NCBI GenBank assembly: GCA_016223085.1
Contig: JACRPS010000020.1
Coordinates: 124,001 to 188,000 of the forward strand
Length of the DNA: 64,000 nt
From: Chloroflexota bacterium
Lineage (GTDB): Bacteria; Chloroflexota; Anaerolineae; Aggregatilineales; Phototrophicaceae
Reading direction: 5' to 3'
How positions within the stretch are numbered: position 1 is the stretch's first letter; each line of letters begins with the position of its first letter. A program made the translations under genes and the position numbers. A model generated the notes under the pieces. It worked only from the letters and a program-made list of their open reading frames with translations. It had not been told where the DNA came from and did no database searches. Positions 43,413-52,166 of this stretch are shown piece by piece.

Positions 43413-43744
43413 TCCTCACGCCTCCACAAGCGTTTTGATTCATTATATTACAAAAACACCAAACGCGCGGCTAATTCGCCTGCGACTCAAGAGGATTGCG
43501 CCTTCTTCAATTCGGAGCAAATGTTCACCCCGCCGCCCTTTTCCCCTATACTGAGTCTATCCTTTCCTGGTCCCTGTCTTCCGAGGGATGACTATAGACT
43601 AACGACCGATGACTACCCGCTTTCACTCAGTTCTCAGTACTCAGCACTCAGTACCGCTTCTCTGTCTTTTCCACTCGCCAACTCAGAACTGTTACCAATC
43701 CCACCAACAGTGGCGGCACTCCCCCTGCCGCCGCTGCAACGACG
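43413..43744. repeat. 332-nt non-coding gap with degenerate tandem words
   Basis: Contains GACTATAGACTAACGACCGA, then TGACTACCCGC, followed by CAGTTCTCAGTACTCAGCAC and TCAGTACCGC. The last words match the tract at 49040-49114; the ACTAACGACC words recur near 59339-59395. Open frames across it have no protein-like features. It lies upstream of the HTH gene and downstream of dcd. Confidence 0.6.
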
Positions 43745-46215: not shown

Positions 46216-48987
46216 TTACACCGCTTCCATGTCGCACCAGTTGCCGCCCGTCTGGGCATTGGCGCGCAAGGGTGCATCCAGTGTGCAGGCGCTTTCCATG
46301 ATGCGCACGACCTGTTCGGCGGTGTCCACCAGTTCGCTGTCCGGCACTTCAAACACCAGTTCATCATGCACCTGCAAGATCATGTGAGCATCGGACTGGC
46401 GCTCGTTGAGATCGCGGTAGATGTCAATCATGGCGCGTTTGATGATGTCCGCCGCCGAACCCTGAATCGGGAAGTTGATCGCCACGCGCTCCTCGGCCTG
46501 GACCACCTGCATGTTGATGCGGTTGCCCAGCGTATAGTGCTGGAACAGGAGCGGGAAGAAACGCCGCCGGCCAAACAGGGTGCTTAAGCCTTCCTTCGTG
46601 CGCGCCTGGCGTTTGGTGGATTCGAGATAACGCAGCACGCCCGGCAGGCGGTCAAAATAGGTCTGGATGAAGCGTTCGGCCTCGGCAAACGTCAGGTTGC
46701 TTTCCCGCGCCAGCCGGTGCGCGCCCATGCCGTAGATCAACCCGAAGTTAATCCGTTTCGCCAGCGTCCGCTGCTCTTTTGTGACCTGATCCAGCGGGAC
46801 GCCGTAAATGACGGCTGCGGTCGCCGCGTGAATGTCCTGTCCCTGATGGAACGCTTCCAGCAGGGTGGCGTCCTGGCTGACGTGCGCCAGAATCCGCAGT
46901 TCGATCTGGCTATAGTCCACCGACAGCAGCTTCATGCCCGGCGGCGCGACAAATGCGCGGCGGATTTTGCGCCCTTCCTCGGTGCGGTTAGGGATGTTTT
47001 GCAGGTTGGGGTTGCTGCTGCTCAGACGTCCGGTGGCGGCGCCGGTCTGGTTGAAGTCGGTATGCACACGCCCGGTGTGCGGGTTAATCAGTTCCGGCAG
47101 GGCGTCTACATAGGTGCCCTTCAGCTTGGTGATTTCGCGGTATTCGAGGATTTTTTCGACGATGGGATGTGCGCCGCGCAGACTGTCCAACACGGCGGCG
47201 TCGGTGGAAAAGCCGTGTGTCGTTTTGCGGAGTCCTTCGGTGGGCAGCCCCAGCTTGCCAAACAGCACGTCATTGAGCTGCTTCGGACTGTTGATGTTAA
47301 AACTGCCGTAGCCGCCGCTGAGGGCATGAATCTCGCTTTCGACCGCTGTTAGACGCTGGCTGAGTTCCTCGCCAAGCTGGCGCAGATAGGCCACGTCCAG
47401 CACCACGCCGGCGCGTTCGATGGCTGCGATCACGGGCACCAGCGGCATTTCCAGTTCTTCAAACAGCTTGATAAGCTGTTCCTGTTCCAACGCCGTGCGC
47501 AGCCGGTCTACCAGCCGGAAGGTGATGGCCGCGTCCGCCGCCGCGTAAGGCGCGCACTTCTCAATCGGCACGGTGTTCATCGTGACCTGCTTTTTGCCGG
47601 TGCCGATCAGTTCCGTGATTTCCGTCATGCGCACGTTGAGTTCCTGCAGCGCCAGCCGCTTCAGCCCCAGTGTGTCGCTATCGGGGCGGCGCAGCCATTC
47701 CGCAATCATCGTGTCAAAGGTGATCGGCGTCACGTCCACGCCGTACCGCTGCATCATCACCAGATCGTATTCGGCGTTATGGGCGTACTTGGGAATCGCC
47801 GGGTTGGTGAAGGCCGGGCGCAGCGCATCCAGCACCGTTTGCAGGGGAAGCTGCTGGCCGTCCTGATGGCCGACCGGAATGTAATAGCCGGTGTCACCGT
47901 TGACAGCGAGCGAGATGCCGACCAGTTCCGCGACCATGCGGTCGGTCGCGGTGGTTTCGGTATCGAAGGCGATGGCCGCCGCGCTGTTGAGCGTGTTCAC
48001 CAGCGCGTCCAGCGTTGGCTGGTCACGCACGATGATCGTTTCGCAGATATTTTCGTCCACCGGCACGCTCTCCGCGCCGCTGTCGGCAGAGGCAAACAGG
48101 GGAAGCTGCTCGGTTTTGGGCAGCCGGTTGCGCAGGCTGTTAAATTCCAGTTCGCGGAATAATTCGTCTACCTTCGTCGCGTCGTAGTCGTGCGCCACGC
48201 AGTTTTTGAGATCCAACGCTACCGGCGCATCGCGGCGAATCGTCGCCAGCGTTTTGCTGAGGAAGGCGGACTCGCGGCCTGCCGCCAGCTTCTGTGCCTG
48301 CGATCCTTTCATCTCATCGAGGTGATCGTACAGGTTTTCGATACTGCCGTAGGTTTGAATCAGCTTGAGCGCGCCGGTCTTGCCGATACCATCTACGCCC
48401 GGAATATTGTCAGACGAGTCCCCCATCAGCGCCTTCAGATCAACCAACTGGTGGGGTTCCAGACCGCCGTATTCCTCACGGAAGCGCGCCACGTCGTAAA
48501 TGACATCGGACACGCCCTTCTGCGGGAAAAACAGCTTAACCGTCACGTGATCGTTCAGCAGTTGCAGCATATCGCGGTCACCGGTGACGATGCGCACGTC
48601 AATATTCTGTGGGTCCGCCTGCGCGGCGACCGTACCGATTATATCGTCGGCTTCGTACCCCTCGTAAGCCAGAATCGGGATGTTAAATGCCTGCACCAGT
48701 TGGTAAATGCGCTCGATCTGGCGCGAGAGATCGTCCGGCATTTTCTCACGCGTACCTTTGTATTCGCCATATAACGTTTCGCGCCCGCTCAAACCCATGT
48801 CAAAGCTGACCGCAAGGTAATCCGGTTTGTCCTTCTGCAAGATATCGAGCAGCGTGCGGGCAAAACCGTAGGTCGCGTTGGTCGGTTCGCCCTGGCTGGT
48901 GCTGAAGGCGCTCACCTGCAGGGCGTGATACTGGCGGTAGGCGATGCCGTGACCGTCAACAATATAAAACAGGGGACGCGCAGGCAT
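46216..48987 (-). CDS. polA: DNA polymerase I
   Basis: 923 residues with three domains. 5' nuclease (1-290): YIVDGHGIAYRQYHAL, YEADDIIGT, TGDRDMLQL and GDSSDNIPGVDGIGKTGA. 3'-5' exonuclease (about 315-490) with intact motifs: FDTETT (ExoI), HNAEYDL (ExoII), YAAADAAI (ExoIII), so proofreading is likely. Polymerase: SVDYSQIELRILAHVSQD (motif A), TLAKRINFGLIYGMG (motif B) and QVHDELVFEVP (motif C). It fills gaps in repair and Okazaki processing. The ATG at 48987 with GGGA is preferred to a frame open to 49074, which is repeat DNA. Confidence 0.97.
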   Translation of the reverse strand: MPARPLFYIVDGHGIAYRQYHALQVSAFSTSQGEPTNATYGFARTLLDILQKDKPDYLAVSFDMGLSGRETLYGEYKGTREKMPDDLSRQIERIYQLVQAFNIPILAYEGYEADDIIGTVAAQADPQNIDVRIVTGDRDMLQLLNDHVTVKLFFPQKGVSDVIYDVARFREEYGGLEPHQLVDLKALMGDSSDNIPGVDGIGKTGALKLIQTYGSIENLYDHLDEMKGSQAQKLAAGRESAFLSKTLATIRRDAPVALDLKNCVAHDYDATKVDELFRELEFNSLRNRLPKTEQLPLFASADSGAESVPVDENICETIIVRDQPTLDALVNTLNSAAAIAFDTETTATDRMVAELVGISLAVNGDTGYYIPVGHQDGQQLPLQTVLDALRPAFTNPAIPKYAHNAEYDLVMMQRYGVDVTPITFDTMIAEWLRRPDSDTLGLKRLALQELNVRMTEITELIGTGKKQVTMNTVPIEKCAPYAAADAAITFRLVDRLRTALEQEQLIKLFEELEMPLVPVIAAIERAGVVLDVAYLRQLGEELSQRLTAVESEIHALSGGYGSFNINSPKQLNDVLFGKLGLPTEGLRKTTHGFSTDAAVLDSLRGAHPIVEKILEYREITKLKGTYVDALPELINPHTGRVHTDFNQTGAATGRLSSSNPNLQNIPNRTEEGRKIRRAFVAPPGMKLLSVDYSQIELRILAHVSQDATLLEAFHQGQDIHAATAAVIYGVPLDQVTKEQRTLAKRINFGLIYGMGAHRLARESNLTFAEAERFIQTYFDRLPGVLRYLESTKRQARTKEGLSTLFGRRRFFPLLFQHYTLGNRINMQVVQAEERVAINFPIQGSAADIIKRAMIDIYRDLNERQSDAHMILQVHDELVFEVPDSELVDTAEQVVRIMESACTLDAPLRANAQTGGNWCDMEAV

Positions 48988-49039
48988 AACAAGTCCCTTC
49001 AAGAGTGTATGAACATTTGGGCTATTATAGCGAAAAAGA

Positions 49040-49114
49040 AGTACTGAGTACAAAGTACTGAGTGCTGAGTACAAACAAAGGAACTCAGTACTTGGAACTT
49101 AGTACTCAGCACTG
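49040..49114. repeat. AGTACTGAGTAC-type repeat tract
   Basis: Direct and inverted copies of GTACTGAGTAC: AGTACTGAGTACAAAGTACT, GAGTGCTGAGTAC, then CTCAGTACTTGG and TTAGTACTCAGCACT. It fills the gap between polA and the 1016-residue gene and ends 2 nt from that gene's stop. Confidence 0.75.
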
Positions 49115-49115
49115 G

Positions 49116-52100
49116 CTAGAGCATCCGCTGGAAGTTGATAAACTCCAGGATTTCCTCGGTCTGCAATTCGCGGCCTGGCGTGAGGACGAGATAGCTGTCC
49201 GCCCACAGCATTTGCGGCGTCAGATCGGGATTTTGGGCGTGGGCGATGTCTGCCGAGCGCCGTTTCAGTTCGCGGATGATGTCGTGCGGCGGGCGCTCGC
49301 CGGGCACGTCAGCCAGCAGGTAGACAAAATCTTCATGCACCTGGAGCGTGTGAATCAGCCAGCCCTGTTCCTGCAACTGGATGGACAGCCCGGCGATGAT
49401 GGACTGCGCGACCGCGTCCGACAGGTAGTCGTCCGGGTCGCGAAGCAGCCAGACACAGGCATAGGCGTTGGTTACTACCGGCTCAACGGGCGGCGGTGGC
49501 AGCGGCTCTGGCTCCGGCGCAACAGCTTCAACCGGCTGAACTTCGACAAGCTGCACTTCCGGCACGGACTCCAGCGCCTCAACCAGCTTGTGCGCCTGCC
49601 GACGGATCACACGCAGCGGCGTGGTGCCTGCGAAGATCATTGAGAGCAGCAGGCTGCCGGTCGTCTGGATGGAATACAGCATGTAGTCCTTGCCGCTGCT
49701 GGGCAGGGAGACAAACCGGAAGCGCGCGCCCTCTGCTGGCGACTCGTCCTGTGTGGTAATAAAGTGCAGCAGTTCGGCGGTGTCTTCCGGCGCGAGATGC
49801 CCGGCAGCCGCCACAATTTCCCCGTCACGAGTGAGCAGCGTACCTTCGGCGGTTAATTCCAGCGACGCCTGGGTCAGATTCAATGCCAGTTGCGCGATGT
49901 ACGGGTCGTGCGGCTCGGCGGCTTCAACTTCCAATTCTGGTTCAACCGGAGACATTCCCTGCGGCGGTGTCCAGCCACTACGTTCTTCCGCCGCCATTTC
50001 CACTTCTGGCTCAACCGGCGGTACATCCTCGGACGGCGTCCAGTCGGCAGCTTCGTCCGCCACCGGCTCGGCAGCACCCAGTCCTTCCGGCAGGGTCCAG
50101 TCGCCATAATCGCCGATAGCGTCCCTCTCCGGCGCAGTTTCTTCCGGCTGGAGCGCCGCTTCGTCGGCAAATGGCCACTCCGCCTCCAGTTCGGTTTCAA
50201 GACCGGCGAAGACCGCCTCCGGCGCGGTTTCTGGCGGCGCTTCCACGTCGGGCGCAGCCTCCGTTTCCGGTAGCCAGTCCACCGGCAGCTCGTCAAATGC
50301 TTCTGCCTCATCAAATTCAGGCGCCGGCCATTCGATTTGAGAAATACGGTCGCCGGGCAGTTCAACGGCAGGGACATCTACCGCCGTGTCGCTTTCCGGG
50401 CGCGGCGGTTCAAACATCTCCTGAACGGCGGATGATGGCTGCGTGGTGCGGCTGCTGGCGTCCGACGGCGGGAATTCCGGTACATCGGGCGGCTCGAGCA
50501 GTTCGCCGGGGGGCAGTTCTTCCGGCAGAAAATCCGGCTCCATCACGCCGCTTTCGTTCAGCGGTCGGAAGGCGCTGGTGTCCATATCCCAGGATGGCAG
50601 CGGCCTGATGTTGAGCTTGTGCGCGGCAAGACGGCTTTCGATTTCCGTCATCACCTCGTCCAGCGGCAGCGAGTCCGGCTGGTCGAGCGTGGTTTTTAAC
50701 ACAACGTGCGCGACCGATTCTTCATCGTCGTCGTCATACGTCCACCAATCGGTGGTACGGTCAGCGGGCGGGCGGCGGGGTGGAGCGTCCTCAATCGTCT
50801 CGTCCCGGTCGGCAAAGGCGGCAAAATCGCCCTCGGCTGCCGAGCGGGGCTGGGGTGCCTCCGGGGCGGGTGCCCGGTCTTCGCCTTCACCGCGCAGCAT
50901 CGCCAGCACGTTGCGGAAGCTGGTATCGCCAATGCCGGTCATCAGGTCACTGACCGTGCCGTCCTCTTCCAGCGTCGGCATCGGCGGCTCTTCCTGCGCC
51001 AGCTTTTTGAACGTCCGGCTGGGTTCCTTCGGCGGTTGCGGCGTGGCCGGTCTGGATTCCTGGATTGGGCCGGTTTTGGCCTTCTCAATTTCCTTCAGAA
51101 CCTGGTCCATGCCAGACGTGAGGATAAAGTCCAGCGATTTTTGCTGGCGTTCCGGCAGGGGCTTGTGCGGGTCGCCACCGCGCATGGATTCAACCAGTTC
51201 TTCAAAATCCGACCGCTGGCGCGGCCCCTGTGGTTCTTCTTCCGGCTCAATCGCGCCCAGAATTTCGTCAAAGGTGTACGGTTCGGCATCCGGCGTGGTC
51301 GCCAGATACTGCCGCACCGCATCGGAATCGCGCTCCGGCACGGAGCGGGTATCTTCCTCGTCGGTCATCGGCTCGAAATCAAAACTCTGTAACACGCTGT
51401 CCAGCGACGAAAATTCCGGCAGTTCGGCAGGCGGCTCCGGCTCGGCAGCCTCCAGGTGACGGGTTCGCACCGGCTGTTTGGTGGGCGGGAGTTCCGGTTG
51501 ATCGTCGTCCAGCATGTGCGTCCCGGCTGGCGCTTGCGGTTCTTCGTCCAGATGCCGGGTTTGGGCCGGGGATGGGGATGCCGGTTCGTCGTCAAAAATG
51601 TGAGTCTTGGCGGATGGCGGCACAAAATCCGGCTGATCGTCAAAGATGCGGGTTTTGCCAGATTTGGGCGGCGCGTCGCCTACCGGGTGAGTGGTGTCCG
51701 GTGGCCGGGGCGGTTCGCTACCCAGGATGCGTGTGCCGCTGGGCGGCGGCACAAATTCATCGCTCACCGGTGGGCGAGACGGCGCGGCGCGGCGAGTCTG
51801 GGGTGGTTCAGGGGCGGTTGCCTGCGCTGCCACCTGCTGAATCACCGGCACCAGATCGCGGGCCGTAAAGGGCGCGTCAATAATTCCCTGCACCTGCACC
51901 GAGGCCGCATCGGGGTGGTCAGGGGTCACAATTACGGCGATGTCCGGCTGGATGGCGCGGAGTTCCTGCACGACTCGTACACCCGGAGCATTGGGCAGGG
52001 TGAAGTCCACCAGCGCGACATCCTGAGGATGGTCACGCAGATAATCAAAGGCCGCGTCGGGCGTGGTAAACGGGTGTACGTCAAACAGGCCGGTTTGCTC

Positions 52101-52166
52101 CAGCGCCTGTTTGATCGTCACCGCGAAGATCAGTTGCCGGTGGATAATCAGTAGACGTGTTGCCAT
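49116..52166 (-). CDS. 1016-residue regulator: pseudo-receiver, T-x-x-[FL] array, roadblock-like and inactive Y1-transposase-like domain
   Basis: Residues 1-112 have a receiver fold (VALVDFTLPNAPG with D54), but the acidic pair is replaced by IIHRQ and the KPF lysine by APF. Residues 140-240 contain six spaced motifs: GTRILG, KTRIFDD, KTHIFDD, QTRHLDE, GTHMLDD, RTRHLEA. A long acidic, proline-rich, probably disordered region follows to about 750. Residues about 754-867 (LALNLTQASLELTAEGTLLT; DYMLYSIQTTGSLLLSMIFA) resemble a roadblock/LC7 module. Residues 899-1016 match the IS200-type Y1 transposase plan (GWLIHTLQVHEDFVYLLADV; IIRELKRRSADIAH; LWADSYLVLTPG; EEILEFINFQ), but the HUH motif is F947-V-Y949 and the catalytic Tyr is F1009. 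Likely a scaffold or signalling protein; domain calls are from pattern only. Confidence 0.78.
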   Translation of the reverse strand: MATRLLIIHRQLIFAVTIKQALEQTGLFDVHPFTTPDAAFDYLRDHPQDVALVDFTLPNAPGVRVVQELRAIQPDIAVIVTPDHPDAASVQVQGIIDAPFTARDLVPVIQQVAAQATAPEPPQTRRAAPSRPPVSDEFVPPPSGTRILGSEPPRPPDTTHPVGDAPPKSGKTRIFDDQPDFVPPSAKTHIFDDEPASPSPAQTRHLDEEPQAPAGTHMLDDDQPELPPTKQPVRTRHLEAAEPEPPAELPEFSSLDSVLQSFDFEPMTDEEDTRSVPERDSDAVRQYLATTPDAEPYTFDEILGAIEPEEEPQGPRQRSDFEELVESMRGGDPHKPLPERQQKSLDFILTSGMDQVLKEIEKAKTGPIQESRPATPQPPKEPSRTFKKLAQEEPPMPTLEEDGTVSDLMTGIGDTSFRNVLAMLRGEGEDRAPAPEAPQPRSAAEGDFAAFADRDETIEDAPPRRPPADRTTDWWTYDDDDEESVAHVVLKTTLDQPDSLPLDEVMTEIESRLAAHKLNIRPLPSWDMDTSAFRPLNESGVMEPDFLPEELPPGELLEPPDVPEFPPSDASSRTTQPSSAVQEMFEPPRPESDTAVDVPAVELPGDRISQIEWPAPEFDEAEAFDELPVDWLPETEAAPDVEAPPETAPEAVFAGLETELEAEWPFADEAALQPEETAPERDAIGDYGDWTLPEGLGAAEPVADEAADWTPSEDVPPVEPEVEMAAEERSGWTPPQGMSPVEPELEVEAAEPHDPYIAQLALNLTQASLELTAEGTLLTRDGEIVAAAGHLAPEDTAELLHFITTQDESPAEGARFRFVSLPSSGKDYMLYSIQTTGSLLLSMIFAGTTPLRVIRRQAHKLVEALESVPEVQLVEVQPVEAVAPEPEPLPPPPVEPVVTNAYACVWLLRDPDDYLSDAVAQSIIAGLSIQLQEQGWLIHTLQVHEDFVYLLADVPGERPPHDIIRELKRRSADIAHAQNPDLTPQMLWADSYLVLTPGRELQTEEILEFINFQRML

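Follow-up and report, generated by a model that had tools for sequence, protein, structure and literature searches.

The window analyzed here is the whole 64,000-nucleotide stretch of DNA, taken from a 6.0-Mb Chloroflexota genome (G000). A single open reading frame on its reverse strand (49116..52166) encodes a protein of 1016 residues, named RRY here, whose relatives have the same domain order: a receiver (REC) domain, an acidic tether, a roadblock-like domain, and a dead Y1 domain. A first-pass annotation made from the sequence had located the gene and numbered residues F947, Y949, and F1009 correctly; V948 and Q1013 complete the set of positions confirmed here. The receiver covers residues of about 1–118 (51813..52166) and was recognized by PF00072 (residues 13–95, E 4.4e-8, 33.7 bits against a cut-off of 30.2) and by column counts in 53 proteins. 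The tether (residues 119–754; 49905..51812), presumably disordered to judge by its composition, was delimited by composition and short islands of conservation; its 636 residues include 101 Pro and 88 Glu, and their net charge is −101. A sliding-clamp motif in the tether, QxxLxF, was set aside because some of the ten aligned proteins lack it. The roadblock/MglB-like domain (residues of about 755–870; 49557..49904) was assigned from Foldseek and a weak profile match, and the inactivated, IS200-type Y1 domain (residues 901–1011; 49134..49466) from PF01797, a profile match to PDB entries, a structural model, and fold searches. Residue numbering and the alignment of relatives place the former HUH motif at F947-V948-Y949 (49320..49328) and the former nucleophile Tyr at F1009 (49140..49142). 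All of these features lie on the reverse strand. The Pfam scan of RRY returned two domains, PF00072 and Y1_Tnp, and the gene is present once in the genome of the window.

The next gene downstream, also on the reverse strand, is polA, for DNA polymerase I (46216..48987; PF00476, E 3e-149). Its probable start is an ATG at 48987, the longer frame listed for it beginning with a TTG at 49074; with the ATG taken as the start, the gap between RRY and polA is 128 bp. Among 111 genomes with RRY, polA lies on the same strand within 1.5 kb downstream in 62, made up of 30/35 in the family of the window (f1), 4/4 in f4, 2/2 in f12, 14/16 and a further 8/8 in f9, and 4/30 in f15. RRY lies less than 1 kb from a contig end in five of the 111 (two f1, three f15). 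In the other 44, some of which are covered only about 1.46–1.5 kb downstream, polA is not within 1.5 kb; these are all of f3, f6, f7, f8, f123, and f20 (in f20 polA is 2.9 kb from RRY) together with three f1, two f9, and 23 f15 genomes. Genes that stay paired across such distances often work in a common process, and the lasting polA neighborhood points to a role tied to DNA polymerase I, replication, or repair. The neighborhood may also be passive, because polA is preceded by a promoter-like element, which suggests that this gene is transcribed alone as well. In the window, the element is a TATAAT followed by GCCCAAATGTTC (49011..49029, reverse strand), and it is a consensus match only. A TAYAAT-like box, followed after 1–8 bases by a GCNCAAATGTTC-like sequence, precedes polA in 23 of 34 loci (23/30 in f1, 0/4 in f4), which weakens the case for a single RRY–polA operon. 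The same kind of element is found in four loci where RRY ends 0.6–1.3 kb away. A sigma-70 scan of positions 48900–49250 found nothing.

The right half of the GCNCAAATGTTC-like element is similar to a LexA box, but its left half has GCCC where GAAC would be expected. The lexA-like gene of the same genome (L149) has GAACGATTGTTC upstream. A putative LexA operator before polA is suggested by these resemblances; a search of the genome for a LexA-type pattern, with a wrong spacer, gave two poor matches only. The window also contains palindromic, heptad-like repeats (AGTACTGAGTAC and variants) at 49036–49116 and 43630–43655. The AGTACTGAGTAC-type repeat has nine matches in the window where 0.29 are expected, and the 81-base repeat stretch, with 33 matches in the genome, belongs to a dispersed repeat family. 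Between RRY and polA there is a 31-nt inverted repeat (DNA fold z −5.0). The idea that the Y1 domain targets the palindromes between the two genes was set aside, since they are absent (by eye) from the same gap in 29 other loci and dispersed in the genome. In f9, the gap at L130, L131, L136, and L137 holds a palindrome like GCAGAG-TATAAT-CTCTGC and then T runs (by eye), which can be read as a terminator or as a −10 box. In f9 and f12 (L130–L132 and L135–L138), a large TPR protein is encoded downstream of polA, with open reading frame starts judged by eye and Pfam run on the L131 copy.

Homology to IS200 transposases

The first-pass annotation had read a Y1 (IS200/HUH) fold in the C-terminus of RRY, and had proposed to check it with Pfam and with a structure comparison at a TM-score above 0.6. 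The Pfam, profile, and fold searches agree with this reading, and both of these marks are passed. PF01797 matches the whole protein at residues 901–1011 with E 5e-9 and 36.8 bits, above its cut-off of 23, and matches the 118-residue piece alone with E 8.5e-11. When relatives were scanned singly, 43 of 46 matched at E ≤ 0.1. The profile of 46 relatives finds an IS200 transposase, PDB 2f4f, at E 1.2e-15, along with seven further Y1 transposase entries (2ec2, 2xo6, 2fyx, 2xm3, 2xma, 2a6m, and 2vhg), each at E ≤ 3e-8; the two matches that follow are unrelated, with E 0.03 and 0.6. An AlphaFold2 model of the Y1 domain alone, built on seven aligned sequences, has a mean pLDDT of 83.4 and a pTM of 0.78. 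With this predicted structure, Foldseek ranks 1–29 are all Y1 transposase chains (TMq 0.64–0.77), and the top 15 entries in VIA-align are Y1 transposases with Z 10.2–12.0, the first unrelated entry having Z 7.4. A core residue, Trp988, is present in all of the sequences compared, namely 50 from the order of the window, 16 from f9, and 13 TnpA. These results show that the C-terminus of RRY is a true relative of the IS200/IS605 Y1 transposases. The extremely improbable reading that the two share a ferredoxin-like fold without common descent, which draws on how common such folds are and on unrelated ones at Z 5.5–7.4, is rejected on the curated Pfam cut-off, the profile match, the 29 top Foldseek chains, the gap in Z, and the HUH remnants found in relatives.

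The Y1 domain of RRY is outside the active transposase family, because the HUH motif and the Tyr are absent. Nor is RRY a small stand-alone protein of the insertion-sequence type: such a transposase has about 150 aa, whereas RRY has 1016 aa and one copy. For the NCBIfam equivalog NF033573 (transpos_IS200), RRY scores 35.8 bits, below the 55-bit cut-off. Two relatives were scanned with the same model: the f7 protein at L058 has no match, and the f9 protein at L131 passes barely (55.6 bits). That one of two relatives passes an equivalog cut-off for IS200 transposases is a warning for annotation.

Spread, inheritance, and selection

Eleven families, all from a single class of Chloroflexota, have the architecture of receiver, tether, roadblock-like domain, and dead Y1. 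Six of these (f1, f3, f4, f6, f7, and f8) belong to the order of the window, and f9, f12, f15, f20, and f123 are found elsewhere in the class. RRY is present in a minority of genomes, at least 80 of the 396 sampled in the class, counting matches in frames of at least 370 aa and leaving out G757. Relatives were searched within the phylum; outside the class, among the matches listed, all lie in frames shorter than 300 aa except that of G288, and there the sequence examined is a 135-aa frame with a TnpA-like fragment. Complete f15 proteins have only 376–455 aa. The two-domain piece of roadblock and Y1 had no match at E ≤ 1e-5 in 72,556 plasmid or 50,697 phage records.

A first tree holds 57 domains; its 44 dead ones, fused or stand-alone, fall on one side of a branch and its 13 TnpA on the other, with support of 100/99. 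In a second tree to which f15 and f12 were added, 40 fused domains are separated from 14 TnpA with support of 97/89. Both trees are to be read as trees of hand-chosen rows with TnpA from Chloroflexota only (L095 but neither L082 nor L101 in the first, L082 and L095 in the second); bootstrapping of the first had not converged, and L183 forms a long branch in the second. Three loci in f9 (L083, L085, and L094) have stand-alone dead Y1 frames of 144–194 aa without the HUH motif, two of them neighboring in L083, and these cluster with the fused domains of f9. Estimates of dN/dS for the Y1 domain are 0.07–0.20 in six pairs. The comparison of the window with L034 gave 0.135; it is the one window pair that was redone, four having been left out as out of register. 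As judged from these substitution ratios, the estimates show purifying selection on the Y1 domain, and we infer vertical inheritance of RRY from an old fusion.

It could be argued that a recent chance fusion, or an insertion sequence decaying at the 3' end of a host gene, produced RRY, given that the genome of the window carries, elsewhere, L001 and L002, ordinary TnpA genes whose HUH motif is intact and which offer live-looking counterparts to the dead domain. However, the architecture is common to 11 families, the Y1 domain is under selection, the fused domains form one side of a branch in both trees, and neither the plasmid nor the phage records hold the two-domain piece. On these grounds we reject both a recent chance fusion and a decaying insertion sequence and give them almost no weight. 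The first-pass annotation had favored domestication over chance fusion, and the shared architecture, selection, and separate tree branch uphold that preference.

Fate of the catalytic residues

In RRY, the two His of the HUH motif are F947 and Y949, and F1009 stands at the position of the nucleophile, all as first described. The accompanying statement that every catalytic residue had been lost holds for the His pair and the Tyr, but not for Q1013, the Gln that is the third metal ligand, four residues past the nucleophile position, which is kept. Across 50 domains from the order of the window, the first HUH position is Y in 30, F in 10, H in six, W in two, V in one, and C in one, and the second is His in none. 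The nucleophile position is F in 44, Y in three, and L in three, and the Gln is kept in 28/50. These domains come from 49 genomes, since G042 contributes a pair that is nearly identical. One of the 50 is a 321-aa contig-end frame (L053) that is outside the wider set of 73 proteins. In those 73, from 10 families, the first His is found in six, the second in one, both in none, the Tyr in 19, and the Gln in 28. Eight further f9 proteins all have Y-x-Q at the HUH motif, with the Tyr in seven. Among 30 f15 proteins, 24 have the second His, three the first, one both, and one the Tyr.

Taken together, these make 111 proteins, one per genome, of which one has both His, 33 have at least one, 78 have neither, 27 have the Tyr (21 of them in f9), and 28 have the Gln. 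The set leaves out four f15 frames (G711, G733, G735, and G736), a 1302-aa frame in G732, two long frames in G757, and some f1 genomes. By the terms of the first-pass annotation, an orthologue in which HUH and Tyr are both intact would count against it; such a protein was sought, and both His and the Tyr occur together in none of the 111 proteins from the 11 families. Its further expectation, that all three positions would be substituted in orthologues, describes most of them but not the f15 protein of G687 (L158, L183), which keeps both His, nor the 32 others that keep a single His, nor the 27 that keep the Tyr. The f15 proteins (L157–L161 and L171–L200) look like intermediate stages of catalytic loss. 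Separately, a stand-alone TnpA from family f19 (L095, in G292) has H-V-R at its HUH motif. The replacements are themselves conserved: in f1, the first position is F or Y in 33/35 and the second is Y in 31/35, and in f9 the motif is Y-x-Q in 24/24 (16 and 8). Conservation of a replaced HUH motif is unlike decay.

The residues that survive could be taken to mean that at least some relatives are still active transposases or nucleases that use other residues, since the Tyr is kept in 27/111, the Gln in 28/111, and both His in one f15 protein. However, one His or both are gone from 110 of the 111, and in 78 neither remains; the protein that keeps both (H-V-H) has Leu at the nucleophile position and a last helix without Tyr, and the genome of the window has a single copy of RRY. 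We consider activity very unlikely and reject it on the His losses and the single copy. The shape of the domain is kept in many bacteria of the class with the cutting residues gone, often beside polA, which suggests that it has been taken over for a new job. Sequence comparisons support the view that the Y1 of RRY is a domesticated, catalytically dead transposase domain, and the initial reading of a dead Y1 kept as the C-terminus of a large regulator is in agreement with sequence, structure, relatives, tree, and selection.

Proposed role and known systems

The other parts of RRY bear on what this domain may do. The receiver was present in 53/53 proteins chosen for having their N-terminus in the locus, in 8/8 further f9 proteins, and in 29/30 f15 proteins; the f9 frames of L087 and L089 begin downstream of it. 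In RRY it keeps D54, while the acidic pocket has become H9/Q11 and the switch Lys has become A98. Counted in families other than f15, an acid at position 9 together with the Asp and the Lys is found in 0/21 f1, 0/4 f4, 0/12 f9, 0/2 f12, 0/1 f20, and 0/1 f123 receivers, and in 3/4 f3, 1/2 f6, 4/4 f7, and 2/2 f8. No receiver counted in the mostly polA-linked families (f1, f4, f9, and f12) combines acid, phospho-Asp, and Lys, and those of the unlinked f3, f6, f7, and f8 have all three in 10/12; the unlinked f123 and f20, with one receiver each, do not fit this pattern.

For the roadblock-like domain, a two-domain model with the Y1 (pLDDT 72.8, pTM 0.46) was searched with Foldseek, where ranks 1–29 are Y1 transposases and ranks 30–50 include MglB and Ragulator roadblock proteins (6h5b_B, MglB, at E 4e-4). 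Our own profile of the domain matched eight MglB sequences with a best E of 0.003, and it finds the domain in 73/73 proteins, in 8/8 further f9 proteins, and in 28/30 from f15. The Pfam roadblock families had no match in 30 members. The domain is probably dimeric and possibly faces a Ras-like GTPase; a gene of the same genome, L139, has a Ras-family match. In another genome (G001), the same domain is fused without Y1 to a TIR domain (PF13676, also ThsB-like; L060:3684-4505, reverse strand).

The charge of the Y1 domain provides an indication of its partner. Over the 50 domains in the order of the window, net charge averages −7.5 (−15 to 0), with −10 in the window itself, compared with +5 (2 to 9) in 13 TnpA counted without L101, which is truncated, and L095, with its H-V-R. 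The 16 f9 domains average +3.4 (2 to 5), and the 30 f15 domains lie between the others at −2.4 (−11 to +8). Eight columns are mostly basic in TnpA, of which the window keeps three (R909, R965, and K968) and loses five; an Arg and a His found in 13/13 TnpA are P911 and A903 in the window. In f9, all 16 domains have Arg at the columns of R909, R965, and K968. The acidity of the domain in the order of the window would argue against plain DNA binding, less so in f9. With three basic residues kept and f9 positive, binding of DNA or RNA may still occur. The first-pass annotation had left the choice between a protein- and a nucleic-acid-binding module; charge favors protein in the order of the window, and does so less in f9.

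We propose, with moderate confidence, that RRY is a non-catalytic scaffold with a role tied to DNA polymerase I, replication, or repair. Its receiver, which is degenerate, and its tether, long, rich in proline, and strongly acidic, would carry the roadblock-like domain and the dead Y1. The latter most likely keeps the dimer-forming core of a transposase (dimerization being assumed from known transposases) and would bind a partner through its surface or through a rebuilt active-site pocket, which would be YUY or FUY in f1 and Y-x-Q in f9. In the order of the window, this partner is more probably a protein than DNA. Transposases of IS200 type are tied to single-stranded DNA and the replication fork and are thought to contact the sliding clamp (PMC6006769); these ties, along with the polA neighbor, would make a replication-linked role plausible for the dead form.

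A different partner is possible, if rather unlikely: the dead Y1 may bind structured single-stranded DNA, such as hairpins or lagging-strand and repair intermediates, without cutting it, and so recruit the scaffold to that DNA, perhaps together with DNA polymerase I. According to PMC6006769, the ancestral TnpA of IS200 type needs single-stranded DNA and has ties to the replication fork. The adjoining polA (62/111) and the positive charge of f9, with Arg at three basic columns in 16/16, are in keeping with bound DNA. However, the domains in the order of the window are acidic (mean −7.5, window −10), the tether carries a charge of −101, and five of eight basic transposase columns are lost in the window.

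The scaffold can be taken one step further in a view that we hold as speculative and doubt more than we credit. The dead HUH transposase would serve as the reading head of the scaffold, its pocket (YUY/FUY, Y-x-Q, or half an HUH in f15) recognizing a single-stranded DNA end, a hairpin, or a replication-fork protein without cutting, while receiver and roadblock would link that recognition to DNA polymerase I by way of a small GTPase. If true, RRY would be the TnpA-side counterpart of the nuclease-dead TnpB regulators. TldR are reportedly such regulators, nuclease-dead, RNA-guided, and derived from TnpB. Like them, RRY contains an IS605-element protein that is without catalysis and is kept as a regulator; unlike TldR, which is TnpB with a guide RNA, RRY has the TnpA half fused to signaling domains. 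The dead Y1 domain also gives a testable handle on an uncharacterized gene that often adjoins polA.

Among the closest known systems are the TnpA of IS200/IS605 (IS608 and ISDra2, PDB 2f4f and 2fyx), with which the Y1 of RRY shares the fold, the core Trp of the LW strand, and the sequence profile. It also shares the class 1 spacing from nucleophile to Gln, F1009-xxx-Q1013, by the motif as given in excerpts of PMC6006769. In contrast to these enzymes, RRY lacks the HUH pair and the Tyr, has 1016 aa and an acidic domain, and is present in single copy. TnpA-REP (RAYT) is likewise a chromosomal Y1 domain kept by the host. However, TnpA-REP has Y---NP and an HUH motif according to the same excerpts, while RRY is dead and of the class 1 type, with F---Q and no HUH; the TnpA-REP structure 4er8 reaches only Z 6.1 against our Y1-domain model.

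On the side of signaling, the receiver, proline-rich linker, and Glu-rich part of RRY recall RomR, a polarity protein of Myxococcus whose REC is N-terminal and which also has a linker rich in proline and a region rich in Glu; MglB interacts with RomR (PMC12719032). MglB is in turn the top profile match of the roadblock-like domain and is among its fold matches. Unlike RomR and MglB, RRY has receiver, tether, roadblock-like domain, and dead Y1 in one chain. Titles and abstract openings in the open-access literature yielded no paper on a protein that joins REC, roadblock, and dead Y1, and the domesticated Y1 transposases described in the literature extracts consulted keep their catalytic core. 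That 11 families keep a dead Y1 fused to a signaling protein suggests reuse of the HUH fold purely for binding. Domestication of transposases is well known, and a receiver–roadblock protein that carries a dead Y1 core and is kept across 11 families of a bacterial class adds a new form of it.
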